From a virus: a DNA stretch of 42,915 bases. Under the pieces are notes generated by a model that did no database searches, was not told the origin of the DNA, and saw only the letters and a list, made by a program, of their open reading frames with translations. Below are positions 1,102-32,200 of this stretch, in pieces (position 1 is the first letter of the stretch; every line of letters starts with the position of its first letter). Location of the stretch: positions 1 to 42,915 of IMG/VR virus record IMGVR_UViG_3300042691_037676; one strand, 5' to 3'. The translations under genes were made by a program, and so were the position numbers.

Positions 1102-2025
1102 TTAAATTGTTGTTACGCTATTAAATGATTTACTAAAATCAATACTTGCTCTTTCTTCTCGAACTTCAAATAAAGGTTTACCTGTAAACCTATCTTTGAT
1201 TTCGTATAAATTGTATTGTTTATAAATTTCGTTATTAAAGTTGTAAATGGTATAAATACCGTCTTCAAGCGATTTTGTTTGATTTCCAAATATACCAAAC
1301 GCTAATGTTTCTATATCGTGTTCAACCATCTCCACCTCAAGCATTATTGGGTTAAAAAATGTGTTTGTAATAATAACTTGTTGATTTGGTTGACCTATAT
1401 ATGGAAACGCATTTGGTTTTACATTCGATGCAGAAGCTGGTGATAACGTACAAAATGTTAATGTTGAGTTATCATTAAAACGGTAACGAATTGCTTTTTG
1501 ATTCGAATTAGTTAAATTTTGATTAACTGGTTCGGCTCTATTGTTTGACGTTACAACCTTAAATAAATTGTTAATTTTAGCATCACTAGCTGAAGTGTTG
1601 GTGCTTAAGTATTCAATTCTGTAACCAACTAAACCGTTATTCTCAAATTTAGTTAAAAAATTTTGTGGGATTGACGAGATATCGAATAAAACACCTACGA
1701 TATCTGGATATGCTGATAAAACACCGACATCAACTATTTTTGTTCTAATTTCAATTGGTTTTATTACGATTGTATAAATCCCCTTTAAACCAAAATTCGC
1801 TACGGGTAATTTTAATGTATATAAACCACCAAAAGCTTCAAATCCAACAATATTTGATTGAGTTTTATTTGGGTTATCAATTTTGCTTAAAACCTCATTA
1901 GAATTTAATTTAATTAAAGTTGTATTACCAACTTTATCTCTTGAAGGTGTGTAATGATAAAAAATCTCTACATCATCTGGAGATAAATCAGCTGGTCTTA
2001 TAGTTCCGAAAACGCCTGTTGCCAT
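1102..2025 (-). CDS. Putative virion structural protein (307 aa)
   Basis: I do not recognise this protein. It has 307 residues, starts MATGVFGTIRPADLSPDDVE, and reads as a mostly beta protein with many N, T and hydrophobic residues; no membrane segment, signal peptide or catalytic motif is visible. The ATG at 2025 follows an A-rich leader (AACAAAAAAAAAC), the usual pattern of this genome. The gene lies 11 nt below the 291-aa gene and 2 nt above the partial gene, inside a tightly packed run below gp25 and gp6. The likely role is a baseplate or fibre component, by position only. The corresponding T4 interval holds gp8 to gp12, but I see no sequence resemblance to any of them. Confidence 0.7.
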   Translation of the reverse strand: MATGVFGTIRPADLSPDDVEIFYHYTPSRDKVGNTTLIKLNSNEVLSKIDNPNKTQSNIVGFEAFGGLYTLKLPVANFGLKGIYTIVIKPIEIRTKIVDVGVLSAYPDIVGVLFDISSIPQNFLTKFENNGLVGYRIEYLSTNTSASDAKINNLFKVVTSNNRAEPVNQNLTNSNQKAIRYRFNDNSTLTFCTLSPASASNVKPNAFPYIGQPNQQVIITNTFFNPIMLEVEMVEHDIETLAFGIFGNQTKSLEDGIYTIYNFNNEIYKQYNLYEIKDRFTGKPLFEVREERASIDFSKSFNSVTTI

Positions 2026-2036
2026 GTTTTTTTTTG

Positions 2037-2912
2037 TTATTCTTTTGTTATTTTATAAAAACCATTACCATATCTTTGTAATTCACCCAAATTTTTTATT
2101 TCTGACATCCTTACATGTTTATCGGTAACGCTTAATACACCTCTCTCTATAAATACATCATTTTCAATTTCTGGTTTACTAACCACACCAAATAAATATT
2201 CTTCTTTTGTTAAAGCTGATAAAGAAATGTTTGTTTCGTTTCTACCATCACCTTTAAAGTTAAAAGTAGTTATAGGTACCACATATATAATATCATCAAT
2301 GATGATTGTTTTTGTTATACCAGTGTAATCTTTATAATATATACCATTTTGCTGATTATTGGTTCCAATATTAATATCTGAAACCGCATCAAAAGCATAG
2401 GTTGTTGGTTCGCCAAGACTTATAACCTTACTTACACCATTTATTAACGAGTTTTGGAAGTTATAATAGTCTTCTGTTGAGATGTTAAAACCTGGAATGT
2501 AGGTTTGTGTCTGTTTATAAGACTTTAATTCATCAATTTTACTATCAGTTGTTCCAGAAATCCTATTACTACCATAAAAATAGAAATCAGATTCCTCTGC
2601 ACCAACTTCTCTAATGGTTAATTTCTCTGTTTGGTTTAAATTATCTATAATTGGTGGTGTTGAACCATTCATAAATGGAAAATTGTAACCATTCGATATT
2701 AATTTACTAATTAAAATGGAATAATCAACTGAATTTGAGTTTGTGTCACCAGAAATAAATGTTATATCTGTGAATAAACCCATATCATCATAGTTTTGTG
2801 TCAAAAAAACATTAATATAAAACGTTGTAGCTGTTAAATCACCCCATTTTTTACTACCATTAATTCTATTCGTACTATTTTCTAGTAAAATTTTATATTT
2901 TTGTACCTCCAT
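2037..2912 (-). CDS. Putative virion structural protein (291 aa)
   Basis: Unrecognised 291-residue protein (MEVQKYKILLENSTNRINGS...). Its ATG shares its A with the TAA stop of the gene upstream (TAATG at 2914-2910), so translation is probably coupled by re-initiation. The composition is N, T, S, I and Y rich with no membrane segment. The middle contains a Y/N-rich stretch (around residues 120-200) and the C-terminus is mixed charged. It belongs to the same run of small beta-rich proteins as its neighbours at 1102-2025 and 2912-3736, which are plausibly baseplate or fibre parts. No specific T4 equivalent can be assigned from sequence. Confidence 0.7.
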   Translation of the reverse strand: MEVQKYKILLENSTNRINGSKKWGDLTATTFYINVFLTQNYDDMGLFTDITFISGDTNSNSVDYSILISKLISNGYNFPFMNGSTPPIIDNLNQTEKLTIREVGAEESDFYFYGSNRISGTTDSKIDELKSYKQTQTYIPGFNISTEDYYNFQNSLINGVSKVISLGEPTTYAFDAVSDINIGTNNQQNGIYYKDYTGITKTIIIDDIIYVVPITTFNFKGDGRNETNISLSALTKEEYLFGVVSKPEIENDVFIERGVLSVTDKHVRMSEIKNLGELQRYGNGFYKITKE

Positions 2913-3736
2913 TATAAAGCATTTACCTCAAAAAGTGTTATTGTTACCAAATCTGATGTATATTCTACATTATTTGGGGTACCAGTTGTTTTCCATTGAT
3001 AAGAGTCATCTATCGTGTAATAGTATCCATTGTTGTTCCTTACTAGTATATATCTAGTATATAGTTCATGGACTAATTCATCTATAGGCAACGCAGTATC
3101 CTTAACCATTAAATTTGTTATTCTACCAGTTTTAGCGTTCCTAAAATTAGCCCTCATATACAAATATTTAGGAACATTTAATAAAAGTTCGTCCTTATAA
3201 TTGTAAAGATAATACCCTTCGGTAATACCTAAAGGATTTGTTAACTCATTTTCTAATTCAAAAGTTAAATCAATTTGATTTGCTGGTTTAGGTATACCAA
3301 TATTACCCGTTGCTTGTAAATCACTTAGTTTTAATTTAGAAAATAATGTCACAAATGATACCAAATTTTGTGACATAGGGTTATCCGAATCATAAAAAGC
3401 TAATTCAAGGTATGTTTGTTTAAATGATTCTTTTTTAAATTTAATATCGTCATCTGTAAAACCAACACTACCATAAGTCATCCCACTAAATAAATTCAAT
3501 TTATAAACAACTTTATTTATTTGATTATCATTTTTAATTGGTGATAATCTTACTTTTTCGTAATCAATTATTGGGTTTACAGCCTTTTTCATTTCAACAT
3601 CAACAAAAACACGTTCAACTAATTCACCTTGGTCAACAATTTGAGATTCTAAACTCATAGGTATATTGAAGGTTAAAGTTGAAGCCGAACCTATTGTATT
3701 TAAATTTATTTTGAAACTATTAGCAAACATCGTCAC
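2912..3736 (-). CDS. Putative virion structural protein (274 aa)
   Basis: Unrecognised 274-residue protein. It begins MTMFANSFKINLNTIGSAST; an internal ATG at the third codon is an alternative start. The start overlaps the end of the 591-aa gene by 17 nt, and its stop shares an A with the next ATG (TAATG), so expression of the three genes is tightly linked. The sequence is acidic to neutral, beta-like and without membrane segments or cysteine clusters. The N-terminal third has alternating hydrophobic residues typical of phage beta-sandwich proteins. A virion role is inferred from the operon, not from a motif. Confidence 0.7.
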   Translation of the reverse strand: MTMFANSFKINLNTIGSASTLTFNIPMSLESQIVDQGELVERVFVDVEMKKAVNPIIDYEKVRLSPIKNDNQINKVVYKLNLFSGMTYGSVGFTDDDIKFKKESFKQTYLELAFYDSDNPMSQNLVSFVTLFSKLKLSDLQATGNIGIPKPANQIDLTFELENELTNPLGITEGYYLYNYKDELLLNVPKYLYMRANFRNAKTGRITNLMVKDTALPIDELVHELYTRYILVRNNNGYYYTIDDSYQWKTTGTPNNVEYTSDLVTITLFEVNAL

Positions 3737-5495
3737 TTGTATTAAAGTTAAATTTATCTGTCATTCTATCACCTATTGGGTCAGCTGGGAATTGATTATA
3801 AAATAAATTCCAATTGTCAAATGGGTCTTGTCTTCTGACATAGAAGCAATGATTATTATAAATGTAATGACAACCATTTAAAAACGGAAAATCTATTGAT
3901 GAACCATTTGCTTGGTTAAACCCAATTGGAATTAAATCCCTCCAAATAATTCTACCATCACCCAAATTAGTTGCATAATCTGGAATACCTTCCGTAAACT
4001 CATCACCTTGTTCAATATAATCTGAAAATTCTCTAATTTGAATCAAATGATGTGCGTTGTAAAAATAACCTTCTTGTCTTGGTCCCAATGTCGTAGTACC
4101 AGTTATTGGAGGCGTGTTTGCTTGTGCATTACCAAGTGAAATATTATAATTTACAGAAGGTGCAGATTCCCTATTTAATGTGTTAAAACGATGTGAAACA
4201 ACAGCCAATACTGTTTCATTCAATAAATTAGTATTATATTCAACTAAATCACCATAAAAAGAAGCATCATTTATACTCACATTTGTATTTAATGGGTTAT
4301 GTGAAATAAATGGTGATGAACCACCATTATGTATTTTATTTATTGCTGGAATGTCTAATAAATAAGGTAAAAAACTACTATTATTTAATTCTGGAATATA
4401 AGGTGTTTCAATACCAGAAGAAACACTACCAAATAATTCATTTGGGCTAATACCACTAGGTGTTTTAATAAATGTTATGTATATTTGTGACAATGGACGA
4501 CCTAAATTATCTTTAAGACCTTCGATATTAATATCTTCATTAAAAACATATTGTGCGTTTTTATCAGTATAAACATTTTCACTAAACGCTAATTTATATA
4601 CATCATAATCACTTTTATCAATCGTACCATTATTTCTAGTTTCAATTTTTTTGAATATTCTGAAATAATATTCAGACTCTACACCACCTATTAATTTTTT
4701 TATTCTTGAATTGCCACTTACAATACCTGTTGGTGGTAAATCAATCACAAAATAATAATCTTTTAAATCACCATTATCTAAGCCCAACCTTATTACAATA
4801 TGGTCACCTTCATAACCACTGGTACCAGTTATTCTAACAACATCACCAACTGATAAGTTATGTAAACATGCCATACCAAAAGCAACCATAGGTTTTGTTG
4901 ATACTGTTGCTGGGGTTGCCTCTACAATCATTAAACCACCATTAACCATTTGGTGTGTTTTGTCAGAACCATAAGGATATGTAATTGTTATTTCCCAATT
5001 TTTAATTGTTCCATTAGCGTTATTAAATGGGTTACTATCTGGAACAAATGAAAACCTTTGTGGTTTTGGTTCCATGTAATTAAATGTTGAAGCGGTGTTT
5101 GATAGAAGACCTGGGTTGTAGTAACCAAACCAACCATTTTTTTCATCTAAATTTTTTAAAGCTTTTGGGTAGATTGCTTCATAAAATCTATAAATTTGAT
5201 TAGATTGGTCTTGATAATTAAAACCCTTCCAAGTATATAAATCGGAATATGCGCTATCATCTAAATTAAACAAAGCGTTTGAAACGTTTAAATTCACACT
5301 ACCTAAAACCCTATAAAATGGACTTTCTTGTCTCTCTTTGTTAAATTGTTCACTAACATTAAGAATTCTATTCATCTCATCTGGTGGCAATAATTTACTA
5401 GTACCTTCAAGATTTATCTTTAATAAGGTATCAGTATTTACAGCCTTTTTAGATGTTGCTGAGTTAAGTATTTGTTTAATTCTATCTGTGCTCAT
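3720..5495 (-). CDS. Putative baseplate/tail structural protein (591 aa)
   Basis: A 591-residue protein starting MSTDRIKQILNSATSKKAVN. It has a short charged, helical N-terminus (to about residue 50) followed by a long aromatic and N/G/P-rich body with no membrane segment. The start lies 1 nt below the stop of the 1375-aa gene. The region around residues 55-170 has many Tyr, Phe and Asn, as is common in phage fibre and wedge proteins. No known domain is recognised. In T4 the genes after 6 and 7 encode wedge and short-fibre proteins (8, 10, 11, 12), so a peripheral baseplate component is the natural guess, but it rests on gene order alone. Confidence 0.72.
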   Translation of the reverse strand: MSTDRIKQILNSATSKKAVNTDTLLKINLEGTSKLLPPDEMNRILNVSEQFNKERQESPFYRVLGSVNLNVSNALFNLDDSAYSDLYTWKGFNYQDQSNQIYRFYEAIYPKALKNLDEKNGWFGYYNPGLLSNTASTFNYMEPKPQRFSFVPDSNPFNNANGTIKNWEITITYPYGSDKTHQMVNGGLMIVEATPATVSTKPMVAFGMACLHNLSVGDVVRITGTSGYEGDHIVIRLGLDNGDLKDYYFVIDLPPTGIVSGNSRIKKLIGGVESEYYFRIFKKIETRNNGTIDKSDYDVYKLAFSENVYTDKNAQYVFNEDINIEGLKDNLGRPLSQIYITFIKTPSGISPNELFGSVSSGIETPYIPELNNSSFLPYLLDIPAINKIHNGGSSPFISHNPLNTNVSINDASFYGDLVEYNTNLLNETVLAVVSHRFNTLNRESAPSVNYNISLGNAQANTPPITGTTTLGPRQEGYFYNAHHLIQIREFSDYIEQGDEFTEGIPDYATNLGDGRIIWRDLIPIGFNQANGSSIDFPFLNGCHYIYNNHCFYVRRQDPFDNWNLFYNQFPADPIGDRMTDKFNFNTSDDVC

Positions 5496-5496
5496 A

Positions 5497-8400
5497 TTAA
5501 ATATTTACCGTACAACCTACGCTATCTTTTACTGAAAAAGGTTGAAATGTAATAGTTGCACTACTACCATTATTTATTGGGTCTGATGGGGTTCCAGTAC
5601 CTTCACTATTAGGATAAAAAGTAATACTACCAATACCACCACTTGTCGTTACATCCCAATAATTCGTATTACTTGTATTTTGTGTTTTAGTTGCTGTTAA
5701 TTGAGAATTAGGTAATGTCATAAGGTTTTTTGGTATTGACGTATTATTACTATAACATGGGCCACCACTAGTATTACTAAATCTAGCAACAACGCTTGAT
5801 GAAACCAAATTTCTAGGGACTGCTGGTAGTGTTATTAAATGAGTAGAACTTGTTACACTATAAGGTATTGGTCCATTCCAAGTTGTTCCACTACTATCAA
5901 TTTTATATTCTACATAAACATCTGGCCCATATTGTTGATAATTATAATTATTAATATAAAAAGCTGGTATATAATTATTTGGGTTACATTGTTTTTCCAA
6001 AACGCTTAATGGTGCTGCCGAGGTTATTAACTGTGGTGCCGAACTGATAATGTTATTGGTTGTTTGCGCTGTTGTACCAAATGAATCAACTACGGTTGTT
6101 GTATAAGAACCAACAATTAAATTGTTTATAATTGCTTGTGTTGTATAAGTATTCGGACCAGTTGTATTTAAACTATATGGTGGAACACCACCAGTAACAT
6201 CAATAACCAAACTACCATTATTACCATTATAACAACTAACATTAGTTGGTGTTACACTTAAATTAATCGCTGATGGTCCAGTTATTGTTAAACCAGTAGT
6301 TATACAATGATTTGACGCAGAATCTACTATATAAACTGTATAAACACCTAAACCTAAATTCTCAAATGTGTCTAACTGTGTAACTGGGCCAGTAGAACTT
6401 TGAATTGATGAACCAGAAAAAGTGTATGTGTAAGGTGATTGTCCTCCACCTAATGATGTTACAGTTATTTTTCCGTCACTAACACCTAAACCGCTTATAT
6501 TTTGTGTTACACTAACTGAACAATATAATGAAGGTGGTCCAGTTACCGATACTTCTTTTACTACTGGGTTACCTAATGAATCAGTTGCACTAATAACATA
6601 TATACCCTCAGCCAAACCATTTATTGTTATTGTTCTATTGTCAAATGTTGTTGTACCATCATCAATAAGCTCCCCATTTGAATTAGTTACGGTATACGTA
6701 TATTCTGGAAATCCACCATCAAATGTAAATGTAATTGAACCAGCGTCAGTTGTTAAACCAGTATTAGGTGTTGTTGATGTATCAATGATAATATCAGAAA
6801 CCTCAACAAACTTACATTCATTAAAATATTTAGTATTCATTTTTTCTAATGCTGATTTTCCTGGTAACAAGCCAAAATACATAAAAAAAGAATGTTTTGG
6901 CTGATTATAATTTGTTAAAGCTGTTGTCGGAATATAACCTCTAAAATCAATATATTGTGGACCATTATCATTAGTTGTTGTAAAATCATAATATCCAAGG
7001 TTAGGTATTTGTGTATTAAAATCTGTGTCTATAGTGTTAGTAAAAATAGGGTTAACTGTACCATTGTTTAAAAGAGTGAAAACATCCCTAAATTCTTTAG
7101 AAATCTCATTTATATCGCTAGAACCTATAATACAATCAGCTACAGTTATTGAACCTGTAATTGGGTCTTCGGTTGATTCGTCAGTATCTACACCAAATTC
7201 ACATATATGTCTAATATTTAAACATTGGTCTCTATTAACGTGTAATCCAAGACAATTTATACCGAAAAATAATCCTTTAGTGTTTCCACCAATATCAACC
7301 ATACCGCAACTTAATAATGAATTATTATCATCAAGTTCTTGAATTTCTGGTGGTATTTTATAAGTTGATGGAATCAAGTAACTCTGCAAATTAGGTACAC
7401 CTTGCCAATCATCTTTTAAAATAGAACCTAAACATATTATATCAGTTGCAAATAATCTATAAGCTGCATTATGTGTTGTAGCGGCATAATAAAATTCATT
7501 TTCATATTTTTTAACTAACCCTTCTCTTAAAGTACCGCTTTCAGTTTTTTCTTTTTGTACGTTATCATCCGTAGGTGATGCGTAACCGACTACACAACTA
7601 TCTAATAAAAAATTACTACGGCAATTATTGTCTGGGTTTCCATTTTCATTACCATCAACACCAGAATAATTAGATTCACCCACAAAATCATCACAATCGT
7701 ATTCACAGAATTTTTCTTGACTTCTACGACGTTTTTTATATTTCAATAAAAAACTATACAATGAACCATTTACCCAATCATTATAAAAATCAAATTGGAA
7801 CATGTTTAAGGATTGAGCCATTTGAAAAGCCATACAATCATCTAAACCAACAGCATTGTCAATTAACGTACAAATATGGTCTTCAGAATCATCACAATAA
7901 TAATCTGGTTGTGGTTCAGCAGCATTAAAAGCCTCACCACCATCTAAACCACCAGTTGGTTTACAACCAGGCGCAAAATATGATGGGTCATCATCGGTTG
8001 GACATTTAACTGTTAAACAACCTATGTAATTAATCTCATTAAAAATTATTGGTGATAACCCACAACTTGGTGCTAAAGGGATATAATTAATCAAATCACA
8101 AACAAACGATATAATTTGATTAACTATATCTACTATACCACCAATAATTGTATTTAAAATTTTAAAAACAGCGTTAATTGCTGGTATGATAAATGAATTC
8201 ATCACATAAATTAAAAACGCAATAATTTTTATTATCAAACAAATAATACTAAATATCGGATTAACATCAGTATCTACTCTATTAAACGGAAATGGTGTTT
8301 TGTCTCCAGCACAATCATCTACGTTTTTCATTCCAATCATGTTTTTATTGTTTACACCACCAGCCGTTTGAAATCTTGAAATGAAATTTGAAACAGTATA

Positions 8401-9624
8401 AATTTTGTTCCAATATAAATCTTTAAAACTATTTGGTTTTGTTTTTGTTCCAAAATTATAATCTATATCATTTTTACTATAAGGATTATTAGGAACCAAA
8501 AACTTAGCTCTAGTCCTTAATCTTCCTTCACCACCAGTTTCATTCATCCCTATTTTAAACCTAACACTTGCTCTAGTTGGTATGCCGACATTCTCATCAT
8601 CGGAAGGAACTAAATTACCTTCTTCATCAGTTAACATATAATCCAAATTCATAGGTACTTGATAAGCCCAAGTTCCATTATCGTCAATTAACTGGCCACC
8701 TTCAATGTCAAAATCTTCTATTTCACCATTGATGTTTTTGCGAATCATTTCTATCGTACCAGGACCAGTTACCTGTTCACAAAATAAACCAATTTTTTTT
8801 CTTGGTCTACAACGCTTATTAATACTATTTTTTGCTTGGTCACCAAAAATACCACCCATAAAGATAGCTGAAGGTGTTACTGTATAATTCAAATTAGCAT
8901 CAGCTCTGGTAATACCAATTTGACATGTTTCTGGGTCACCCCAAAATGGTTGAACGTTTACACCAACATTTACGGTTTTAATTTGAGGCATTTTATCCAA
9001 ATTATTACCACCTTTAAATTTATTAGGTGAATCAAATAGTTTGGGTGAACTACCTTCTCTTATTAAATCATAAGGTCTTTGTGAGATTGAACCTATATCA
9101 GAAATATCAGCATCAATGTGTAATATGTGGTTTCCTAGTGGAACACCAAATATCATAAAATCACCAGCATTATTTGTTGTGGTTGTAAACTTGTAATATT
9201 TACAATACAAACTCAACATTGTTTCATTATCTAACATTTCTCTTTTAGAAGGAAATGTACCAACTGGTGTAAAACATTTATTATTTGTATCGTTAGTGTT
9301 GGTTAAAAGATTATAACGAATTCCATCTGAATTTTTATCTATTACTACTTCGTATGGATATAATGCTTTAAGTGTTGGATTTTGAGAATCAACTTCATCA
9401 ATAGGTATAAATATACTAACCTTGGCGTTTGGAACACCAAAACCATTATTTACTATTACTCTACCTACAACAACTCCATAATCAGAACAATAATTTCTAT
9501 AAGCTTCTTCTTGTGATATTTTAAGTGACAAAATTTCAATAAAATCAAAATCTTGTTTTAAATTTACTTTTAAATATTTATCATTTCCGTTTGGGGTTGT
9601 TCTTATCCTAACTGAATTTCCCAT
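5497..9624 (-). CDS. Large virion protein with carboxypeptidase-regulatory-like and SprB-type repeat domains
   Basis: A 1375-residue protein in the position T4 gene 7 takes after gene 6. Residues about 50-190 look like a carboxypeptidase-regulatory/Ig-like fold (GRVIVNNGFGVPNAKVSIF, later NAGDFMIFGVPLGNHILHID). A strongly hydrophobic stretch lies around residues 450-520, rich in I, F and V and unusual for a virion protein. Residues about 520-900 are cysteine-rich (CEYDCDD, CLNIRHICE). From about 950 to 1190 lie three tandem repeats with the signature of SprB adhesin repeats of gliding Bacteroidota: a D/N-G x I T V/F T segment, a GG-x-P-Y-x-Y/L turn, then GxYTV-x-V-x-D-S. The C-terminal 180 residues are further beta-rich sequence ending in FSVKDSVGCTVNI. 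The SprB match suggests contact with the host surface, but the function is inferred. Its stop is 1 nt before the next gene. Confidence 0.82.
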   Translation of the reverse strand: MGNSVRIRTTPNGNDKYLKVNLKQDFDFIEILSLKISQEEAYRNYCSDYGVVVGRVIVNNGFGVPNAKVSIFIPIDEVDSQNPTLKALYPYEVVIDKNSDGIRYNLLTNTNDTNNKCFTPVGTFPSKREMLDNETMLSLYCKYYKFTTTTNNAGDFMIFGVPLGNHILHIDADISDIGSISQRPYDLIREGSSPKLFDSPNKFKGGNNLDKMPQIKTVNVGVNVQPFWGDPETCQIGITRADANLNYTVTPSAIFMGGIFGDQAKNSINKRCRPRKKIGLFCEQVTGPGTIEMIRKNINGEIEDFDIEGGQLIDDNGTWAYQVPMNLDYMLTDEEGNLVPSDDENVGIPTRASVRFKIGMNETGGEGRLRTRAKFLVPNNPYSKNDIDYNFGTKTKPNSFKDLYWNKIYTVSNFISRFQTAGGVNNKNMIGMKNVDDCAGDKTPFPFNRVDTDVNPIFSIICLIIKIIAFLIYVMNSFIIPAINAVFKILNTIIGGIVDIVNQIISFVCDLINYIPLAPSCGLSPIIFNEINYIGCLTVKCPTDDDPSYFAPGCKPTGGLDGGEAFNAAEPQPDYYCDDSEDHICTLIDNAVGLDDCMAFQMAQSLNMFQFDFYNDWVNGSLYSFLLKYKKRRRSQEKFCEYDCDDFVGESNYSGVDGNENGNPDNNCRSNFLLDSCVVGYASPTDDNVQKEKTESGTLREGLVKKYENEFYYAATTHNAAYRLFATDIICLGSILKDDWQGVPNLQSYLIPSTYKIPPEIQELDDNNSLLSCGMVDIGGNTKGLFFGINCLGLHVNRDQCLNIRHICEFGVDTDESTEDPITGSITVADCIIGSSDINEISKEFRDVFTLLNNGTVNPIFTNTIDTDFNTQIPNLGYYDFTTTNDNGPQYIDFRGYIPTTALTNYNQPKHSFFMYFGLLPGKSALEKMNTKYFNECKFVEVSDIIIDTSTTPNTGLTTDAGSITFTFDGGFPEYTYTVTNSNGELIDDGTTTFDNRTITINGLAEGIYVISATDSLGNPVVKEVSVTGPPSLYCSVSVTQNISGLGVSDGKITVTSLGGGQSPYTYTFSGSSIQSSTGPVTQLDTFENLGLGVYTVYIVDSASNHCITTGLTITGPSAINLSVTPTNVSCYNGNNGSLVIDVTGGVPPYSLNTTGPNTYTTQAIINNLIVGSYTTTVVDSFGTTAQTTNNIISSAPQLITSAAPLSVLEKQCNPNNYIPAFYINNYNYQQYGPDVYVEYKIDSSGTTWNGPIPYSVTSSTHLITLPAVPRNLVSSSVVARFSNTSGGPCYSNNTSIPKNLMTLPNSQLTATKTQNTSNTNYWDVTTSGGIGSITFYPNSEGTGTPSDPINNGSSATITFQPFSVKDSVGCTVNI

Positions 9625-9629
9625 TTTGT

Positions 9630-9956
9630 TTATTTTATTTCTTCCACCTCTAGAGGTATTAAATCTTTTTCATCATATAATGTAATATCATCATCATCGT
9701 ATTCTTTTTCTTCTCGTTTGAATTTATTACCAATAGCCATTAATAATGGTTTAAAATCAATATTTTCATTCAAAACCAACATCTTAAACATAATCCAAAT
9801 AATAAACATCATTATTATTGGTGATGCAGCCAAAGCTATTAAAAATACAAATGATTTTAAAACATATTTTCCTATATTTATTTTTTTGTCTCCATTTGAT
9901 TCTTTTTGTAACATATCATCGATTTTGTTACCATTTTTACAATTACAATTTCCCAT
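9630..9956 (-). CDS. Small membrane protein in the baseplate operon
   Basis: A 108-residue protein with a Cys/Asn/Lys N-terminus (MGNCNCKNGNKIDDML), a long hydrophobic span at about residues 30-62 (one long or two short membrane helices) and an acidic C-terminus with a run of Asp (EYDDDDITLYDEKDL). It has no cleavable signal peptide. The ATG at 9956 follows an A-rich leader (AAACAAAAATAAAAAAAAA), which supports the start. It lies between the gp6-like gene and the 1375-aa protein that also carries a hydrophobic segment, so the two may meet at a membrane. The composition resembles no T4 baseplate protein. It could be a host-membrane protein made late in infection or a minor virion component. 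No homologue is recognised. Confidence 0.72.
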   Translation of the reverse strand: MGNCNCKNGNKIDDMLQKESNGDKKINIGKYVLKSFVFLIALAASPIIMMFIIWIMFKMLVLNENIDFKPLLMAIGNKFKREEKEYDDDDITLYDEKDLIPLEVEEIK

Positions 9957-10005: not shown

Positions 10006-11826
10006 TTATTTAACTCTAACACGTATATCAGTATTAGGGAATTTTACTTCAAATAAACTTACTGGGTCACCGAAAAGTGTATAGTCTTCTGAGATATCAA
10101 TTTGTCTGGTTGTTTCATCCAAATATGGTTGTTGTATTTCATTCACACTATACTTACCCTCACCAACTTTATTAAATACTCTTAAATCTATAACATTTAA
10201 TACACCACCAACATTATTTATATTCTCTATCAAATTAGATAAATAAATATTATCACCCATTTGAAATTTATTGATATCCATGTAATTTTGGATATTAGTA
10301 ATTACTTGACTCATTATTTGTGATTGTGGTGTTTTTTTATCTACAAATAAATCCACTTCAAAACCTAAATTAATAATTTTGCCGTTGTTTACAACAACAT
10401 AATCATTAAGCATTCTATAGTTTGATAAATATGTTCCTATGTTATCCCTTAAAGCACTTGTAGAAGTATTTGTTAATTTTGAATCACCATCCAAACCTAA
10501 GATATAGATATTAATCTTATTTTGTTCTTCAAACACACCACATCTAAATGGCACACCAAATTTACCGTCCATTAAAGCAATTCTTGATTGATAATCTTTA
10601 ATTGTAACAGCTCTGTTTTGAGAAGAAAAATTATATCTAACTAAATTTCTAATTTCTTCTACACTTGGTTCGTTTTTACCACCTAAAGCTGGAAAAGCAT
10701 TATTTACAACTAATGAATTTTGAACAGCGTTATTCATTGTTGTTGATGGACCATTAATAATTATATTTACAACACCCAAACTAGTCAACACATTTGGTCC
10801 TAGATTGGTATCTGAACCACCACCAACTCTATATCTAATAAACATAGTTGTGTTTGCTGTAGGTGTTTCACCTAATGAAAGGTTATTTACAAAATCACCT
10901 ATTTGTTGAACTAAAGCGATGTTAGAATCAAAGTCACATAAACTACTAGTATCTTGATTACCACCACCTAATATTAGTTTTATAAAACCCTTGTCGGTAT
11001 ATTCGGTAATAAAACGTTTTGTTATTGCTGTCCATTTTCCTGGTTTAACACCAGCATTATCACTTACTTTTGAATTATCTTCAATAAAGACTTCATTTTC
11101 AGCTAAAGCACTTACTTCATACCATGTTTTATCTGGGTCTAAGAATTGCTCATATGATGGGTCTCTAGTGTAATTAGTACCATCTAATGTGATAACAGAA
11201 TCAATTGATAAAACATTATTTTCTGGTAAAATAATTTCTAAAAATGGTCTTACATCAGAAGGTGTGATAACTCTTTTAAATATTTTTGAAAAACCATTTA
11301 ATACAATTTCTCTTTTTGTTAATGTGTAGTTTGTTAAATTACCATTAGAATCAAAATTAGGTATTATCAATCTATTTGGGATACCACCAATAGTAAAAGG
11401 ACTTGAAAAATCAATATCATTTGTGGTTTCGAAGATTTTACCAGCACCACTTACTTGTGAACCAGCAATAATCAATGGTGCATAACTAATATCAAACGTA
11501 TTACCAAATGGTGGTACTGTTACTGAAAAATCAACTATTGTGATGCTTGGTCTTTTTCCTGGTATTTTTAAACCAAATGTTCTAGCCATTGAAAGAACCG
11601 AACTTCTTTGCTGAGCATAATCTATTTGAGTTTCTTGGAACATTCTATCGGTATTGAATGATAACATATCACCAACAGCCGCATTTAATTCTAATAACAT
11701 CATACCTACCGAAGCATCATTAAAATCATTAAAGATGTCTGGGTAATATTGTCTGACCATATTAACTAACTCCGACCTAATGTCAGCGTAGTTTCTTGAA
11801 ATATAATTTATACCTTGGTTTGCCAT
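10006..11826 (-). CDS. 6: Baseplate wedge protein, T4 gp6-like (baseplate J family)
   Basis: A 606-residue protein close in length to T4 gp6 (660 aa), the wedge subunit that forms the iris ring around the hub. The N-terminus has the family pattern: a YADIRSELVNMVRQYYPDIF helix, then NDASVGMMLLELNAAVGDML and Q/S/A-rich helices through RTFGLKIPGKRP at about residue 95. The middle holds beta domains, and SVEEIRNLVRYNFSSQNRAVT (about 385-405) followed by the DYQSRI motif is the typical baseplate-J junction. The C-terminus ends in GDPVSLFEVKFPN. It lies 1 nt below gp25, as gp25 and J-type proteins often do in contractile tails. The assignment is confident at family level. Confidence 0.93.
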   Translation of the reverse strand: MANQGINYISRNYADIRSELVNMVRQYYPDIFNDFNDASVGMMLLELNAAVGDMLSFNTDRMFQETQIDYAQQRSSVLSMARTFGLKIPGKRPSITIVDFSVTVPPFGNTFDISYAPLIIAGSQVSGAGKIFETTNDIDFSSPFTIGGIPNRLIIPNFDSNGNLTNYTLTKREIVLNGFSKIFKRVITPSDVRPFLEIILPENNVLSIDSVITLDGTNYTRDPSYEQFLDPDKTWYEVSALAENEVFIEDNSKVSDNAGVKPGKWTAITKRFITEYTDKGFIKLILGGGNQDTSSLCDFDSNIALVQQIGDFVNNLSLGETPTANTTMFIRYRVGGGSDTNLGPNVLTSLGVVNIIINGPSTTMNNAVQNSLVVNNAFPALGGKNEPSVEEIRNLVRYNFSSQNRAVTIKDYQSRIALMDGKFGVPFRCGVFEEQNKINIYILGLDGDSKLTNTSTSALRDNIGTYLSNYRMLNDYVVVNNGKIINLGFEVDLFVDKKTPQSQIMSQVITNIQNYMDINKFQMGDNIYLSNLIENINNVGGVLNVIDLRVFNKVGEGKYSVNEIQQPYLDETTRQIDISEDYTLFGDPVSLFEVKFPNTDIRVRVK

Positions 11827-11827
11827 A

Positions 11828-12211
11828 TTAAATTTGAATTATTACAAAATCGTTAGTTGTGAACACTTCATCGGTTATTGTATAATCTAACCTTACAACA
11901 GCTGCGTGTTCACTTTCTTCAGATTGTTCAACTATTATGTTATTAATTTGTAATTTTGGTAAATATTTTTTAACTGTTGAATGAATTTCTTCTTTGATTT
12001 TAGATAAGGTTAACCCATCTTCTGGTTCAAAAATAAAACGAAGTAAGTCAGTACCAAAATCTGGTTTATAAAGTCTCTGCCCTTTTCTCGTAAGAATTAA
12101 GTGTAATAAATCACTCTTTATAGCATCGGCATCAACGCTATTCAATTCAATAAAAAATCCATTAACACTATTTTGAAAAGGATATCTAATATTTATATAT
12201 TTACTCGCCAT
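11828..12211 (-). CDS. 25: Baseplate wedge protein, T4 gp25-like
   Basis: A 127-residue protein, close to T4 gp25 (132 aa), which nucleates sheath assembly on the baseplate. It shows the gpW/gp25 family hallmarks: an N-terminal IRYPFQ segment, LLHLILTRKGQRLYKPDFG near residues 36-54, and the conserved E-P-x-D type motif in IFEPEDGLTL (about 60-69), then a KYLPKLQINNIIVE strand. The ATG at 12211 is preceded by a 60-nt AT-rich gap below the nrdA terminator. A TATTTAT box lies at 12230-12224 with a partial upstream match to the candidate late promoter seen elsewhere, so this gene probably starts the second baseplate operon. Confidence 0.93.
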   Translation of the reverse strand: MASKYINIRYPFQNSVNGFFIELNSVDADAIKSDLLHLILTRKGQRLYKPDFGTDLLRFIFEPEDGLTLSKIKEEIHSTVKKYLPKLQINNIIVEQSEESEHAAVVRLDYTITDEVFTTNDFVIIQI

Positions 12212-22742: not shown

Positions 22743-25700
22743 TTAAGCAACATTTGAAAAATTTGGACTATTTGAAGCAATTGGATTTTTTTTACCATAT
22801 GCTATTGAACTTGGGCCCACAAACCAACCAAAAATTTGATTATCTCTTTCAACTAAACCAACCCTACCATTAAGTGGTATTCTATCTTTTATTGTATTTG
22901 AATAAAAGTCGGTTCTACCACCTATAAATTGTTTAGATGAATTAACTAATGTTGTGTTTTTCAAAGCTTTTACAGATTTTTCTATTTCATTTTTAGCAAC
23001 TTGTTCAGAAACATTTTTAGATTTCATAAAAGCTTTAATCGCAGTATTTTTATTGTTTATACTATTAAACTCTTGTACAGCTCTATCTACTGGTTCATAT
23101 TGGTTTTTTGCTATTATTAACCCTTTTATTGTATTTGAACCATATAGTTTAGAATCTAATCTGTTATATATTGATTGAGCAACATCACACCTACCTTGGT
23201 CTGTGCCATTTTCTAATGCACAAATCGCAACTAAGGACCAATAATCAGCGTCTGTACCTGTCGCTACTGTTCCAGAATTAGAACTAATATCGACACCAGT
23301 TCCTATTAATTTTTTAGAATTGTAATAAAAATTATTTGTTTTTTTAACTAAAATTTTATATTCACTAACAGGTTGATTTAAATAACCATTATCTAAATTA
23401 ATCTGTTTAAGTTGGATTGTGTTGGCTATGTTACCACCGACTATATATGCTTTATTATTTTCTACATTATATATAACGTCACAATGACTAGCAGTATAAC
23501 TTCCGCTTCTTTTATAACACATTAAATCACCAATTTCTGCTTTTATTTTTAACCCAGAATTTAATGAAAAAGCTTCATATCCGTTTTTTCCTTTCATTGC
23601 ATTGGTAACATAATCATAATGCATTGGTGATTTTGGAAAACTTTTATCACCACCTAACATTAAATAAGAGGTAAAAACAGCACTCCATGGTGTTGTATCA
23701 TTAGCTGCGCTTTCAGAAGATATACCTGGAACTTCTTTAACGTATACATCTAAAAATTGTACACCATCTTGTTCTTTAATACTTCCATTTTTCCAATTAG
23801 AAATTTCTTGTAACGCTCTGTCTGTTAAAGCTTTTTTATTTGGTAATTGACTATTTTCTATTGTTTTTACTGCTGGTGTGTTTAATAATAAATCATTGTA
23901 ATAATCATCAATATAGTTTTTACCATTTACGCTATTCGTGTTTACTGTTTCATCTATACCATCAATACCAATAGATTCTAATAACGACATATAAAATTCA
24001 GATTCTTTCATTAATTTAGTCTCAATATTTTTAATTCTAACACCAGTAAATGATGTGCTCATATGGTTAGGTTTTATATTATGTTTAACATGGGTAATCA
24101 TATACGCACCATGGAACATGGGTATATTATTCAATTGAAAATACATCATAGGTTGAATCATGGCATTGCCCATCATTTCAACTTCAGCTTTGTAACTTCT
24201 TACAGAATAAACGTTAAATATGTTTTGACCACCATATGTTCGACGATTTTCAGAACCCTTTGTAGCTATATCATCTACTATTTTTAAAGATTCGGCTGTT
24301 TCAGAAAATTCATTTTGGTCCAATATAATATCTTTAAAAATATTTTGATTTTGCTGTGAGTAATTAACAGCAAATACTGCAACGTTATTTTCATGAGATT
24401 CTTTTTCTTGATAAAAATCTTGAGCTAAAGAAGTTTCTAAATTACCCTCAGAATCACATCTAAAATCAACACCATCATTTGGGTATTCAGAAGCATTAAA
24501 ATTTAAATTCTTTGATGTTTGACCAACATAAACACAAACAAATGAAGGACCTATTTCACCATTATCAAATGCTTCTAAGGTTGTCATTGGTGTAAACATT
24601 TTAACTAAATTTTTTTCATTAAAATTTATAAATGACGGTAAAGCAATAAAATCAAAATTATTTGAACTCAATAAACTACCAACAACATCATAAAAACTTG
24701 AATTTTGGTTTTCTTTTAAATAACTAATAATTGGTGTTGGGTTGATAATGAATTCATCACCTATATCTCTAAATGACCTATTGACAAATCGGAAACTATC
24801 AATTAGTCTTATTTCCTTTCCAACACCAGCCAATTCTTTATCTAACCCATTTCTAAACTCATTTTTACCAAACATTAAATTAATTAAAGAATCGGTACCC
24901 CCAATCCATTTATCATAAATGTTTTTACATGTTCTATATAGTTGAAATTTAATTACAATATCACTATCACTGCCAAATATTTCATTTTTTTGTTGTTTCT
25001 TTTTTTCATCAACTGTTTGACTGTTTTGTTTAGAAAAATTACTGGTACAAGTTGAAATAAATGTGTTTAAATCATCATCACTAACAAAAATATTACTCAT
25101 TTTTTCATAACAAGTGTTGCAGAATGTTTTTTCTTGTTGCCAAATTCTATAAGTTGTATTAGCTATATATACTTCTTGAGTCATTAATTCTAATATCATA
25201 TTAACACCATCTGAATTATCTTTTAATTCAGTCATGAAATTGTATTTAAAATCATCATTATCTTCATATGGTGAAAATATGATATAATCATTTAAAACTT
25301 TTTTACCGTTATTTTCCGCATTAAATAATGAAAACATTTTTTCTTTTCTAAGCGTACCATCTGAATATAAACCACCACCAGCACTTATATTTGTTAATAA
25401 TCTATTATATGTATTAACCCAAGTTGTTGCTGTTGTTGGTTTAAATACCTCTAACTTATTTTTTAAAATCGACCAATCTGATTCTCCATCTCTTAATTTT
25501 ACAAAATCAAAAAATACTTGTTTAAATTCATTTTTAACTTGGTCTGGTAATTGCAATAATGTATTATCTAAATCTATAAAATCATCATCTTCATCCTGTG
25601 GAAACACCATAGAACCAAATTTATAAATACGATTATCATCAGAATCGTGTTTTAGATATTGTAATTTTTTTGGTGTTACAGTTGAAACATCCCAAGTAGG

Positions 25701-28700
25701 GATTAGTGATTCTGTTCCTTTAGTCCAGTTTATTGGGTCTGAATTACCAGAACCACCACTTTTTATAATATTTGTGCCTTTATGGAAAATTGGTTTTGAT
25801 GAGTCAGCTCTCCATAACATTCCACCAATAAACGCAACCCATAATTTAGGTGCCGAAATAAAACCAGCCCTATTTCCAAAAGTATTTAATATTTCATTAA
25901 CATTAAAAATGCCTTTTGGTTGGTTATCATTTTCAGAAGAGTATAAACCATTCCAAGGTAATGTATGTAAAAACAATAAAGCTTTAGCATAATCACCATC
26001 AAATTTAAGAAATATATTACCTATTTGTTCATTATATAAACGACTACCAAATAAACCAATTGGTGCACTATCTGAATCAGAAAACGCAGAAATTTGAAAA
26101 CCAATAAATGGATATGAAACATTATCGCTTTTTTCTTCAATAAAGCTTGATAATAAAATTCTATTTTTACCTAAAGAATCATGTGTTGTTTGCTTACCTA
26201 TCGTATATTTAACCGCATCTTGTATTTTTTCAAATTGTTTTATCTTATCACTACCTATATCGTAAGGTGTTATTTTTTCTTTTCTTTTATAACAAACAGA
26301 ACCCATAGCGAAAGGTTCATAATTAAAACCACCTTCTTTAATATCGCTAAAGAACATAATTCTATATTCAGCTTTATCCATTTTATCAACCCCATAATTT
26401 AAAACTTTATAGTCTTGTATTGAATATGGACCAGAATATTGATTAAAACCAACTTCATTAAATTGTTTATTAAACTTTTCTTGTGGTAATTTTAAAACAT
26501 CTAATAACAATGTACTGCTTTCATTTACAACACTAGTTGATTTTATAGATGATTTATACGTGTCTGGTGAAATAATTTTAATATATACACCACCATCATC
26601 TTCTTTTTGATTAATCGTATTATTTGGATTTAAATAATTAGATGATGTATAATTTGTCAAAAATAAGTTTCCTTCTTCTGCTTTATTTTTTGTGTTCTCT
26701 AAAAAACTAAATTGATATTCAAATTTGTTATCATTAGTTGTTATTGGTAATATTTTTTTTGTTTGTGAATCATAAATAAAATTATAATACCAATCATTGT
26801 TTAATTTTTTAATTAAAGAAACACTTTCATTATTATTTTTAGCTTTAACATCAACAAAATCTTCTTTTTTTAATTGTGATAATGATTTTTTAATAACATC
26901 ATTATCAATCAAAGATAATATAGCTTCACTTTCTTTATTTGCTATATCAACAATTTCTTCTTTTGAAAGTTTATAGTTAGTGTATCCAATATAAATAAAA
27001 GCTCTTTCCATTAAAAGAGCAATAACTTCTTCTTTTGTGTTAGCTTGAATTCTTTTATAAGGAAATGAATCAATAAATAATCTTGTATCTATTGGATTTA
27101 TTGGAATCCAATTAGAATTATTTAGTTCTGATGCAATTTCTATATCAGCTATTTTTTTAGCTGATTCGATAAAAGCTTTTAATAAATCATCAATAAATAT
27201 TGTCTCATCTATTTTACTTGCATCTAATACATTGGAGTTACCTAAATATTTTTCAACATAAGCACCTTTATTAACTGCATCTGGTTCCCTATACTCTGGC
27301 CATGGATAAAAATTTTGATTTAATTTGCTTGAAGCGTCATTATTTGTTGTTTTGTTTACACTTGTTGATTTATAATCAAATGAATTAATAAATTTTTTTT
27401 CTAATTCGGATTTTCTAATTGGGCTTGTTGTCGCTTCAGTTGCCACATCATATAATACATGCATAAAAAGTTCAACGGCAGCTGTAAATGAACCAACAAT
27501 TGCTCTAATTGTTGGTTCAAATTTTATTTCTTGTGTTATATTGTTTCTTAAAGTATTAGCAACCTCAATCTTTAAATTATTACCTTCTTGTTTTAAATTT
27601 GTTTCAGTTTCATTTAAAATTCTTAATTGTTCTCTGAAATCATAAACATCAAACACCTTTTCAAAAGCAATGTTATTTTGACTACCGTAAATTTTTAGTT
27701 CCTCTCTTGTTTTAACTTTATCTAAAGCTTGAGACAATTCGCTTGTTAAAGTATTAGTTGAATTTAATAATCTTAAACTTAAACCTTTATATGTTTTAAC
27801 ATTAGAAAAACTTAATTCTTTTTCATTTAATGAAATATCTGAAAACATTTCAGTATTAAAAAGTTTTACGTTTTCTGCTATATTTTCGTTGTAAGTTTTT
27901 ATAGCATCATTTAATTCCGTATTTGTAGTTTGTGCAAAAGGGTTTGCAAAAGGGCTTGTTGTTTGTTGTTCAGTTTGTAATGGAGCAAAAATTAAAGGCC
28001 CAACTTGTGTGTTAGTTGTAAAATTATCTTTAAGTACAAATTTAAAATCGGTTGCATCTTTATTAATATTAAAATCACTTTGTCCAAATGTGTTTATATT
28101 CGATTTAAGTGTTGTTATTAATTCCAATTTAGAATCTAATTTTTTTAAATCAGCAACATTTGGGTCTGAATCTTCTAATTTTTTTACTCCTTCATCAATC
28201 TTGCTAATTTTTTCAGCTAACTCATCTAATGTATATAAATTACTTCTAGTTTCTTTTATTTGTTCCCATTTTTCTTTGCCTTTTTCTGTATATGGTATTG
28301 CTCGTAAATAACCAATTAACATATCTGAAAGCATAGCATATGTATACCCAATAAAATTAGCTGTTATTTCAAAATTACCAGTTTGTGAGTTAAATCTTGC
28401 ATTGAATTTAGTTAAATGCAAATTATACTTAACAGGCATACCATAATACCCCTTAACCGTTAATGTGAATATAGGGTATGGTAAACTGAAAAATTCAGCA
28501 TATTTGTTTTGACCATTAGCTATAAATTCTTCATTTTGAAAAATGGCTGAACCTCTTAAATCAATAAAATTAATTACTATCAACGGTGCGTAAGATGAAT
28601 TAAAATCAATATCAATAGATGAAATACCCAATGCTTGTTGAACATTTGGCTCGTTTAAATTAGTTGTTAAATCAGTATAACTTGTTGTTAATGCTTTTTT

Positions 28701-28937
28701 ACCAGCAACCTTATCACCTTCAATAAATGTAACGTAAGAACCCTCTGTTGATATAAATGTGCTACTTATGCCATTACTATTTAATATTGTTCTAGCTTTT
28801 TTTGTTGTTTCTAATTGAACATAGATTGACAAATCTTCTAATGGTACAGAAATATTATTTGATAAATTTTGTCCATCAAAATCATTAGGGTCTATTAATA
28901 ATGTTTTCTTGGAACTACATGAAATCTTATTCGCCAT
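22743..28937 (-). CDS. Giant baseplate protein with two cell-wall hydrolase domains
   Basis: A 2064-residue protein, by far the largest here. The N-terminal third reads as a baseplate or hub structural region (PLPYPIFTLTVKGYYGMP-like strands near residues 150-175, then YTYAMLSDMLIGYL), with coiled-coil stretches around 230-300 and 400-470. The middle is long beta-rich sequence with one CNTCYEKM cysteine pair. At about 1700-1870 lies a DUF2272-like domain (PWSAVFTSYLMLGGD, later GDLMCYKRSG and HCDVIYNV), and at about 1895-2050 a SleB-like hydrolase (ICALENGTDQGRCDVAQSIY, then NQYEPVDRA). Both are linked to peptidoglycan degradation, so the protein probably combines the roles T4 gives to gp27 and gp5. 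It overlaps the gp53-like gene by 11 nt. Confidence 0.85.
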   Translation of the reverse strand: MANKISCSSKKTLLIDPNDFDGQNLSNNISVPLEDLSIYVQLETTKKARTILNSNGISSTFISTEGSYVTFIEGDKVAGKKALTTSYTDLTTNLNEPNVQQALGISSIDIDFNSSYAPLIVINFIDLRGSAIFQNEEFIANGQNKYAEFFSLPYPIFTLTVKGYYGMPVKYNLHLTKFNARFNSQTGNFEITANFIGYTYAMLSDMLIGYLRAIPYTEKGKEKWEQIKETRSNLYTLDELAEKISKIDEGVKKLEDSDPNVADLKKLDSKLELITTLKSNINTFGQSDFNINKDATDFKFVLKDNFTTNTQVGPLIFAPLQTEQQTTSPFANPFAQTTNTELNDAIKTYNENIAENVKLFNTEMFSDISLNEKELSFSNVKTYKGLSLRLLNSTNTLTSELSQALDKVKTREELKIYGSQNNIAFEKVFDVYDFREQLRILNETETNLKQEGNNLKIEVANTLRNNITQEIKFEPTIRAIVGSFTAAVELFMHVLYDVATEATTSPIRKSELEKKFINSFDYKSTSVNKTTNNDASSKLNQNFYPWPEYREPDAVNKGAYVEKYLGNSNVLDASKIDETIFIDDLLKAFIESAKKIADIEIASELNNSNWIPINPIDTRLFIDSFPYKRIQANTKEEVIALLMERAFIYIGYTNYKLSKEEIVDIANKESEAILSLIDNDVIKKSLSQLKKEDFVDVKAKNNNESVSLIKKLNNDWYYNFIYDSQTKKILPITTNDNKFEYQFSFLENTKNKAEEGNLFLTNYTSSNYLNPNNTINQKEDDGGVYIKIISPDTYKSSIKSTSVVNESSTLLLDVLKLPQEKFNKQFNEVGFNQYSGPYSIQDYKVLNYGVDKMDKAEYRIMFFSDIKEGGFNYEPFAMGSVCYKRKEKITPYDIGSDKIKQFEKIQDAVKYTIGKQTTHDSLGKNRILLSSFIEEKSDNVSYPFIGFQISAFSDSDSAPIGLFGSRLYNEQIGNIFLKFDGDYAKALLFLHTLPWNGLYSSENDNQPKGIFNVNEILNTFGNRAGFISAPKLWVAFIGGMLWRADSSKPIFHKGTNIIKSGGSGNSDPINWTKGTESLIPTWDVSTVTPKKLQYLKHDSDDNRIYKFGSMVFPQDEDDDFIDLDNTLLQLPDQVKNEFKQVFFDFVKLRDGESDWSILKNKLEVFKPTTATTWVNTYNRLLTNISAGGGLYSDGTLRKEKMFSLFNAENNGKKVLNDYIIFSPYEDNDDFKYNFMTELKDNSDGVNMILELMTQEVYIANTTYRIWQQEKTFCNTCYEKMSNIFVSDDDLNTFISTCTSNFSKQNSQTVDEKKKQQKNEIFGSDSDIVIKFQLYRTCKNIYDKWIGGTDSLINLMFGKNEFRNGLDKELAGVGKEIRLIDSFRFVNRSFRDIGDEFIINPTPIISYLKENQNSSFYDVVGSLLSSNNFDFIALPSFINFNEKNLVKMFTPMTTLEAFDNGEIGPSFVCVYVGQTSKNLNFNASEYPNDGVDFRCDSEGNLETSLAQDFYQEKESHENNVAVFAVNYSQQNQNIFKDIILDQNEFSETAESLKIVDDIATKGSENRRTYGGQNIFNVYSVRSYKAEVEMMGNAMIQPMMYFQLNNIPMFHGAYMITHVKHNIKPNHMSTSFTGVRIKNIETKLMKESEFYMSLLESIGIDGIDETVNTNSVNGKNYIDDYYNDLLLNTPAVKTIENSQLPNKKALTDRALQEISNWKNGSIKEQDGVQFLDVYVKEVPGISSESAANDTTPWSAVFTSYLMLGGDKSFPKSPMHYDYVTNAMKGKNGYEAFSLNSGLKIKAEIGDLMCYKRSGSYTASHCDVIYNVENNKAYIVGGNIANTIQLKQINLDNGYLNQPVSEYKILVKKTNNFYYNSKKLIGTGVDISSNSGTVATGTDADYWSLVAICALENGTDQGRCDVAQSIYNRLDSKLYGSNTIKGLIIAKNQYEPVDRAVQEFNSINNKNTAIKAFMKSKNVSEQVAKNEIEKSVKALKNTTLVNSSKQFIGGRTDFYSNTIKDRIPLNGRVGLVERDNQIFGWFVGPSSIAYGKKNPIASNSPNFSNVA

Positions 28938-29295: not shown

Positions 29296-32200
29296 TTAAT
29301 TATAACCCCATGGACTTCCAGCACCACCACCACCAGGTAATCCTCCTTCAAATCCTCCAAATTTACCCTCCCACTGTTCCTGTTCTTTCTTTGATATATA
29401 GTTAGAAATCCAAGGAGAGTCACCAAATTTATTACCTAATACTTCAATTGAAATATAATAAAGATATGATTTTTTATACTTTAAACCATCATAACTATTA
29501 GCAAAAAAATATTTTTTACTTGTGTTACTTCCAAGAACGCCAACACCTAATTCTCGTTTAAAAAATGAATTTAATGGGTCAATTAAATATAATCTAAAAT
29601 TATAATTTTTACTTAATGTATTAGATAAAACAATTTCTAATTCACCTATAAAATAATCACCACTAAGTTTTTTTGATTCGCCATATTTAACAGATATTAT
29701 TTTATTGATATCTGGTTGTGTTTGAGTAATTAAAGGAATATTTTTTTTTATTGCTTCATCATTTGCTTTCTTTTGGTCAATAATTGGATTTGTATCATCA
29801 ACATTAATTGGTGGTATTACTTCTTTTTTTACTTCTTCTTTTATTGAATCATTTTTTAATTGGTTTTTATCTATATAGTCAGCTCTTGGGTCATATACTT
29901 GTGCGTTAGCATAATAATTAAATGATAATGCATTTTGTAATTTTTGAATTGGACCCATTAATGAACTACCACCAATAAATTTAAATGACATATTGACATT
30001 AGCTATCATTGGTTGTACCCCAATACCCTCTGGATTTAAATCCCAAACTAGTGGTTCATAATCAAATGCGATATTATCAATAACAATTTTCGTATTATAA
30101 AAATCACCTAATCTTAAAATACATACTGGTGCTCTACCAAAAGCCAAATTGTTAGCACCCTGTTTTTCAAGTGTTGGTCCTTGTCTAGTACATTGATGTA
30201 AGAATGTTAATCTAGAATTTAGTCCTTCTGGTGTTGTAGAATGAAAAGCTGGGTGAAAATATCTAATTTTTTCTCTGAAACTATCAAAAACAAATTTATC
30301 TTTATCTGTTAATTGTTCAAAATACCTACTTTCATCATACAATCTATTTTTAATTTTTGTGTTGATGTCTCGTGTTGATGTTGTTTGTTGAATTGGTTCT
30401 GGTTGAATTGTTTCTGAAGCGGCTAATTCATTACTAAATTCAAAAACAACACTACTTCTCCTATCAGATTTACACGCAAAAGTATCTGTTGCTGCACTTA
30501 TTCCTGTGATACATTCGCTTTGATTGGCCGTTAAAGCTGTGTTTTTAGGTGTTGCAAAACGTTTGGCTATATAGTCTTGTGTTTTCCCGTTAAATATCCC
30601 TAAAGTATTTATTAAATATTTTTTTATACTTTCTGTTCTTGCGTCAGCTAATTTTTTATTAGAATCTGGATTACCCTGTGGGCTGGCATATGATGTTATT
30701 CTGATGATACAATGTGGACATTTTTCATCTAAATATTTTGCTAATGCTGGACCATAATTTGGGTCGGAAAATCCGCTATAACTAATCCCATCTAACTCAA
30801 CGATTCCACCTCGCCAACCATTTAAACCATAATTATGGTCATCAACCCATGGTGTTTGTGATGTCACACCACCGACATATGAACCAATACCATAACCAGA
30901 ATCATAAACATTATAATCTATCTTTTCTGTTGGTGTTGGTGAACCATTTTTTAAACCATTCTCATAACCCTTAGAAATTATGTCAGTAATATTAGAACCA
31001 TCATTAGGGAAATAAACTGTAAAACTATCTGGTGCTATTTCGGGAGCAATAACAACTTCTTGTGTTGTTATTTTTTGTGTTTCAGCACCATCACTTTTTT
31101 CAGAAACGGTTAATTTATCAGCAAATTTACTTGCTGGGTCAATACAACCAGCAAAAAATGAAGCTACGTAGTTATCATCTGGACCATTAGGGTTCCTAAA
31201 TCCATTAATGTAGCTAGGGTGGTCAACTATAATACTAAATGATAAATTACCACTTCTTTCAGTGTTATTATAGGTATATATTGGTTCACCTCGACCAATA
31301 AAATTAGTACTTTCCCAATTTACGGCTGATGTTTCATTAAATTGAATATTATATGGTGGAAACCACATTATTCTACCTTTTTTACCACTTAATAAATCAC
31401 CCATTCCTATTTCAACTGGTGGTAAATTAGGACTTTCATCAGCCCAAGCTAAGTTTTCAATTGAAAACATAAATTTTTTTGGGTCAGCCCCAACATAACC
31501 ATTTTTATCTTTTGTATATGGTGCTATTTTAGGAAAACCGTATTCATCTAAAGTTAAATTTTCAGTTTGAAATCTATATGGGACTGTATCACCAGTATAT
31601 ACCCCCTTGTGTCTTATTAAATTTTTAACACTATCATATCTACCAATTGTTGTCCAACTTCTACAAAAAGTAGAATCTGGGTTTGACAATACATTTACAT
31701 AACCATTTACATCATATAAATTTTTACTTAAAACAGCACTACCCTTAGAAAGTGTTTTATTATTACTTGTTAAAATTTGACTTGAGCTAACATTAGCTTC
31801 TCCTTTTGCTGTTACTATATTTTTCATACCAGCACTTCTAAATAATTTTTGTGTTTTTACTAATAAAGAAGTCTTTGGTAAAATAGCCCCAGTAATATCG
31901 ATTAAATCAGCTCTTGGTGCACCTTCATCATCTTCATTGATTGTGTTTACCGTACCACCAACATCTGAAGTCCATGTAAAACCAACATCACTTAACTTTC
32001 TATTATCATAACCAGTATTACCTTTTGGTCCAGTAAATGTTTCTTCTGGTCCTTTAAAACCATATTCACTAATCATCGCTGAACGATTATAACTAATGCT
32101 TGGTATTAATCCATCAGCATTTAAAAAATTTAAAATAGTACCCTTGGTTTTATCATCATAAAAAGCATAAAGATTTGGATTAATTGCTTTTTGACCTTTG

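Follow-up and report, generated by a model that had tools for sequence, protein, structure and literature searches.

The window (the whole 42,915-nt stretch of DNA analysed, IMG/VR virus record IMGVR_UViG_3300042691_037676) contains a putative baseplate wedge cluster on its minus strand, in which a gp25-like gene is followed by a gp6-like gene, a gene for a 108-aa protein and an ORF for a 1375-aa protein, the subject of this analysis (Table 1). Ribonucleotide reductase, DnaB-like helicase, UvsX-like and SSB genes also lie upstream, and tail-tube and baseplate-hub matches are found farther along the window. The 1375-aa protein matched no PHROG family, and neither Pfam nor PHROG returned a match for the four conserved genes downstream of it. 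Elsewhere in the window, an HNH/homing-endonuclease-like ORF (39776–41296, +), possibly a mobile element at a structural locus, lies beside two tail-tube-like (gp19) genes (37485–38198 and 39239–39727, −), which flank a regulator-like ORF. Two giant proteins, encoded at 22743–28937 (2064 aa) and 29296–33381 (1361 aa), both on the minus strand, are without an informative PHROG family.

Table 1. Features of the baseplate locus and of the 1375-aa protein in the window
Feature	Position	Strand	Basis
gp25-like baseplate wedge protein	11828..12211	-	PHROG 261, E 5.1e-21
gp6-like baseplate wedge protein, upstream neighbour	10006..11826	-	PHROG 219, E 4.7e-18; synteny
108-aa protein between gp6 and core, kept in most close loci	9630..9956	-	synteny
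1375-aa baseplate-locus protein, core plus SprB-domain extension	5497..9624	-	ORF call and translation, family searches
Core, residues 1-937, closing motif YFGLLPGKSALEKMNTKYF	6814..9624	-	homolog alignment, AF2
N-terminal carboxypeptidase-regulatory/transthyretin-like beta domain with insertion, residues ~48-250	8875..9483	-	VIA
Strongly hydrophobic predicted helix, residues 456-514	8083..8259	-	AF2 model
SprB-family domain D1, residues 942-1028	6541..6801	-	Pfam, phage-domain profile, AF2
SprB-family domain D2, residues 1029-1115	6280..6540	-	Pfam, phage-domain profile, AF2
SprB-family domain D3, residues 1116-1199, best Pfam score	6028..6279	-	Pfam, phage-domain profile, AF2
Terminal all-beta tail, residues 1200-1375, diverges fastest	5500..6027	-	AF2 secondary structure, identity, dN/dS
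Four conserved downstream genes (591, 274, 291, 307 aa)	1102..5495	-	synteny

This gene order recurs in relatives of the window. The core lies 335–1322 bp after gp6 in all SprB-positive loci in which both were found (84/84), and gp6 is likewise upstream of the core in SprB-less relatives. The first-pass annotation had spoken of a phage virion protein, a designation that now has the gp25–gp6 neighbourhood directly upstream in its favour and was otherwise an assumption. Since nothing among solved structures is convincingly related to the core, it is from gene order that we infer a location in the virion, at the baseplate.

The AF2 model of the core (pLDDT 85.8, pTM 0.83) begins with a domain that resembles carboxypeptidase-regulatory/transthyretin-like folds (VIA Z up to 7.1 over ~82 residues), and CarboxypepD_reg was a sub-threshold Pfam match in core relatives. 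Searches of solved structures returned no match by sequence and weak partial matches only by fold (Foldseek, VIA). The core does share its fold with A0A8S5LA66 (BFVD: E 2.9e-81, TM 0.74, 31 % identity), a predicted protein of 994 aa from a metagenomic virus, Myoviridae sp. ctPuP5. In its position directly downstream of gp6 in the wedge cluster, the core is reminiscent of the T4 baseplate wedge protein gp7, also a large product encoded right after gp6; however, the window protein matched no PHROG family, no gp7 appeared among the Foldseek and VIA matches listed, and gp7 is not known to carry SprB domains. The ~59-residue hydrophobic helix could insert into a membrane or form the core of an oligomer; every SprB-clade member examined retains it, whereas L001 lacks it.

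Three tandem SprB-type repeats at about residues 950–1190 had been noted from the sequence, and a search against the Pfam SprB family (PF13573) bore this out: the protein scored 36.6 bits (E 3.6e-9) over three stretches, above the curated cut-off of 28 bits, and the domains extend from residue 942 to 1199. The interval first marked, 5900–6790, takes in nearly all of the three domains (6028–6801) plus some of the tail that follows. Scanning the DNA gave separate matches at 6172–6255 (39.3 bits), 6412–6513 (24.4 bits) and 6676–6777 (17.5 bits), so that D3 is the sole domain above the cut-off by itself; the Pfam model has 37 positions, about half of each ~86-aa domain. The same scan found SprB matches in none of 14 control genomes. 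A profile built from the phage family detects all three domains (D1, residues 943–1028, E 1.9e-20; D2, 1029–1115, 7.1e-19; D3, 1116–1199, 5e-21), with E values that give boundaries rather than independent significance, the window being among its training sequences. The SprB consensus across the phage homologs consists mostly of fold motifs.

The domains have clear counterparts in bacteria. A tblastn search of 72,556 plasmids with the three domains hit nine records, all from Bacteroidota (best E 7e-18), and in four of the proteins so found, from Runella, Emticicia, Spirosoma and Aureispira, the phage-only profile detected long tandem arrays with a period of ~75–80 aa, one of the four being annotated with a T9SS sorting domain. 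Reciprocal profile matches place the phage and bacterial arrays in register. With plasmid sequence matches confined to Bacteroidota, convergent generic Ig-like repeats are disfavoured, and the same repeats did not turn up, in the collections searched, in phages lacking a link to this phylum. AF2 models the extension as all beta (pLDDT 89), and the top three Foldseek rows are GhpA of Aureispira. In VIA, GhpA fragments (Z 9–10.6; 9fls, 10.6) are tied with fibronectin FN3 strings; fold alone would therefore not single out SprB, whereas sequence does. The phage protein thus shares with GhpA and other Bacteroidota surface proteins homologous beta-sandwich domains of ~78–86 aa in tandem, but has three of them fused to a phage core, whereas the bacterial arrays examined have 7–25 copies. 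Unlike those adhesins, it shows by eye no hydrophobic signal peptide at its N-terminus (MGNSVRIRTTPNGNDKYLKV) and no T9SS C-terminal sorting domain above the Pfam cut-off; Por_Secre_tail reached 15.7 bits against a cut-off of 27, overlapping D1. The proposal of a motility-adhesin module accordingly holds for the family and not for motility: what the phage domains match in bacteria are surface proteins of a general kind or proteins secreted through the T9SS, and ‘SprB’ is here the name of a widespread Bacteroidota adhesin domain rather than a sign of gliding as such.

Searching phage collections with the domains yielded only one significant record, LR756502, which is a second reason to disfavour convergence. 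This 642-kb phage-labelled record (LR756502.1; L009:6159–11171) has a 1670-aa ORF with a signal-peptide-like start, 13–14 matches to SprB, one PKD domain and a type IX secretion signal (CHU_C); from these features the ORF appears to encode a host-type secreted adhesin, on a record labelled as a huge phage. No relatives of this adhesin were confirmed among viral contigs.

In IMG/VR, a search with a two-row core alignment returned at least 548 relatives of the core. None was confirmed in GTDB genomes, and used alone the core matched no cultured phage; another search of cultured phages matched one record, in the repeat part only. Homology of the core to gp109 of Flavobacterium phage immuto, or to a Microcystis phage protein at a similar position, was considered and rejected, as neither matched. 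Most close core relatives carry the SprB part. Across 41 non-redundant complete homologs and the window, an extension follows the motif YFGxxPGKTALxKMNxKYF, with a SprB match at E≤0.01 in 39 of the 42; among large contigs, 7/11 exceed the family cut-off and 10/11 have E≤0.01. The recurrence of this single ORF across dozens of contigs, drawn from different samples, rules out a chimeric assembly or chance ORF. One subclade (L085, L087, L088 and L091) has, a few kb downstream, an extra gene of 359–386 aa whose product carries one SprB-like domain (e.g. L087:14594–15670).

The closing motif of the core, YFGLLPGKSALEKMNTKYF, is the C-terminus in distant homologs, which end within a few residues of it (scan centred on a distant homolog). 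On the core tree (68 rows, first ~470 residues, midpoint root), the SprB label needs one change, and the base of the SprB clade has an SH-aLRT of 84 %, rising to 97 % when the long row L124 is removed; four rows end differently or are short at this end, among them L159, which has a different extension. With this root, the single change reads as one old C-terminal fusion, kept by the whole clade. The first-pass annotation had suggested seeing whether the phage repeats cluster with one host lineage. Instead, D1, D2 and D3 group by position: their labels change 6 times on the tree, compared with a mean of 91 after shuffling, a signal far from chance although the tree has few columns. Because of this grouping and the single gain, the three-domain string was already present in the ancestor of the clade and has been inherited vertically since; the same two observations rule out an acquisition from a single host lineage in recent times.

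Divergence increases along the chain. In pairs with N-core identities of 0.85–1.0, median identity falls to 0.65–0.71 in D1–D3 and 0.57 in the tail, and at N-core identities of 0.6–0.7 the domains and the tail are at 0.30–0.33 and 0.25, respectively. In close pairs with unsaturated synonymous sites, dN/dS likewise rises from N-core to domains to tail (e.g. L069/L070: 0.02, 0.12 and 0.47; L063/L067: 0.16, 0.27 and 0.49). A conserved N-terminal part with a faster-evolving C-terminal part is also seen in phage receptor-binding proteins, and the gradient agrees with a distal part that is exposed and subject to selection of a weaker or diversifying kind. The data do not demonstrate positive selection on the tail, as high ratios are confined to pairs with saturated synonymous sites; given that no reliable pair has a tail dN/dS above 1, relaxed constraint accounts for the gradient equally well as diversifying selection.

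The closest annotated phage relatives of the window's NrdA infect Cellulophaga and Tenacibaculum, and the best matches of its gp6 include Flavobacterium phage immuto, a Microcystis phage record and a huge phage. Based on these relatives, a Bacteroidota host is likely, in agreement with the plasmid matches and with the Bacteroidota link first proposed; a search for NrdA in bacterial genomes gave no match from which to infer the host. The Microcystis record (phage Mel-JY01, L102), whose gp6-like gene ranks with the closest relatives of the window's gene in cultured phages, also carries a ‘major paralogous domain’ protein. We take such proteins to be associated with Bacteroidota/Fibrobacter, which may bear on the stated Microcystis host.

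Taken together, we favour, with a probability of roughly 0.55, a protein whose core is anchored in the baseplate and whose three SprB domains form a stalk, with a variable distal tip in contact with the host envelope. The conserved N-terminal two thirds would dock into the baseplate wedge beside gp6, leaving the protein peripheral in the baseplate. At the original C-terminus of this core, one fusion event would have given the ancestor three beta-sandwich domains of the SprB family, the kind from which giant surface adhesins of Bacteroidota are assembled, with the variable beta tail after them. The string would be stiff, keeping the tail away from the baseplate; in this role the SprB domains would probably be a stalk that holds out a rapidly evolving tip towards the host cell. 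If the protein is virion-borne and points outwards, its tail and exposed stalk loops would touch the host envelope first, most likely at glycans or surface proteins of Bacteroidota. The hydrophobic core helix has no place in this model, and it also counts against the model that phages can often do without their accessory Ig-like domains.

That the domains merely brace baseplate parts, binding nothing outside the virion, is improbable: their conserved order and number and a consensus dominated by fold motifs suit a structural spacer, but divergence far faster than that of the N-core, and fastest in the tail, is unusual for internal contacts. It is somewhat more conceivable, if still unlikely, that the string is an accessory, not the specific receptor binder, and retains virions near hosts by binding glycans of mucus, algae or particles; one of the four downstream genes could then encode the true receptor binder. 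Bacterial SprB-type proteins are surface adhesins, and for phage Ig-like domains an affinity for mucin glycans has been proposed, e.g. in Flavobacterium myophage FCL-2 (PMC6867891); T4 Hoc likewise has three Ig-like domains (PMC10385173). Hoc and other phage Ig-like accessory domains resemble the window protein in forming short strings on a conserved anchoring part. However, Hoc is a capsid protein with a C-terminal anchor and domains of another family, whereas the window gene is in a baseplate locus and descends from a single ancestral fusion, its SprB array being fixed throughout the clade rather than sporadic.

Receptor binding or binding of SprB partners had also been offered as a purpose of the repeats. 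Resistance of T9SS/gliding mutants to phages, including F. columnare gld/spr mutants (PMC9233685), and the proposal that SprB/RemA are phage receptors in Cellulophaga (PMC13288928) make adhesin mimicry an attractive idea; as the mechanism of adsorption, with captured domains engaging the host's SprB-type adhesin system through homotypic or partner binding, it would nevertheless surprise us greatly. A virion that contacts SprB or motility partners and rides the gliding track, or uses SprB as its receptor, is equally hard to credit, since SprB-family domains are general Bacteroidota surface-protein domains, as the plasmid matches indicate, and the hosts are not known to glide. Nor do we know of homotypic binding among SprB domains.

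Phage structural proteins with Ig-like accessory domains are already known. No description of SprB domains in phage virion proteins was found in the openly accessible published literature searched, and as far as that literature shows, the fusion of a string of SprB-family domains to a baseplate-locus protein, ancestral to a large uncultured clade, is new. The gene is a marker, and its product a candidate host-contact device, for phages outside every PHROG family. Through a putative structural gene, a large uncultured phage clade, with its 548 or more core relatives in IMG/VR, is tied to Bacteroidota, and a host-type adhesin module is seen to have been gained cleanly, a single time, at the C-terminus of a protein of the baseplate locus.
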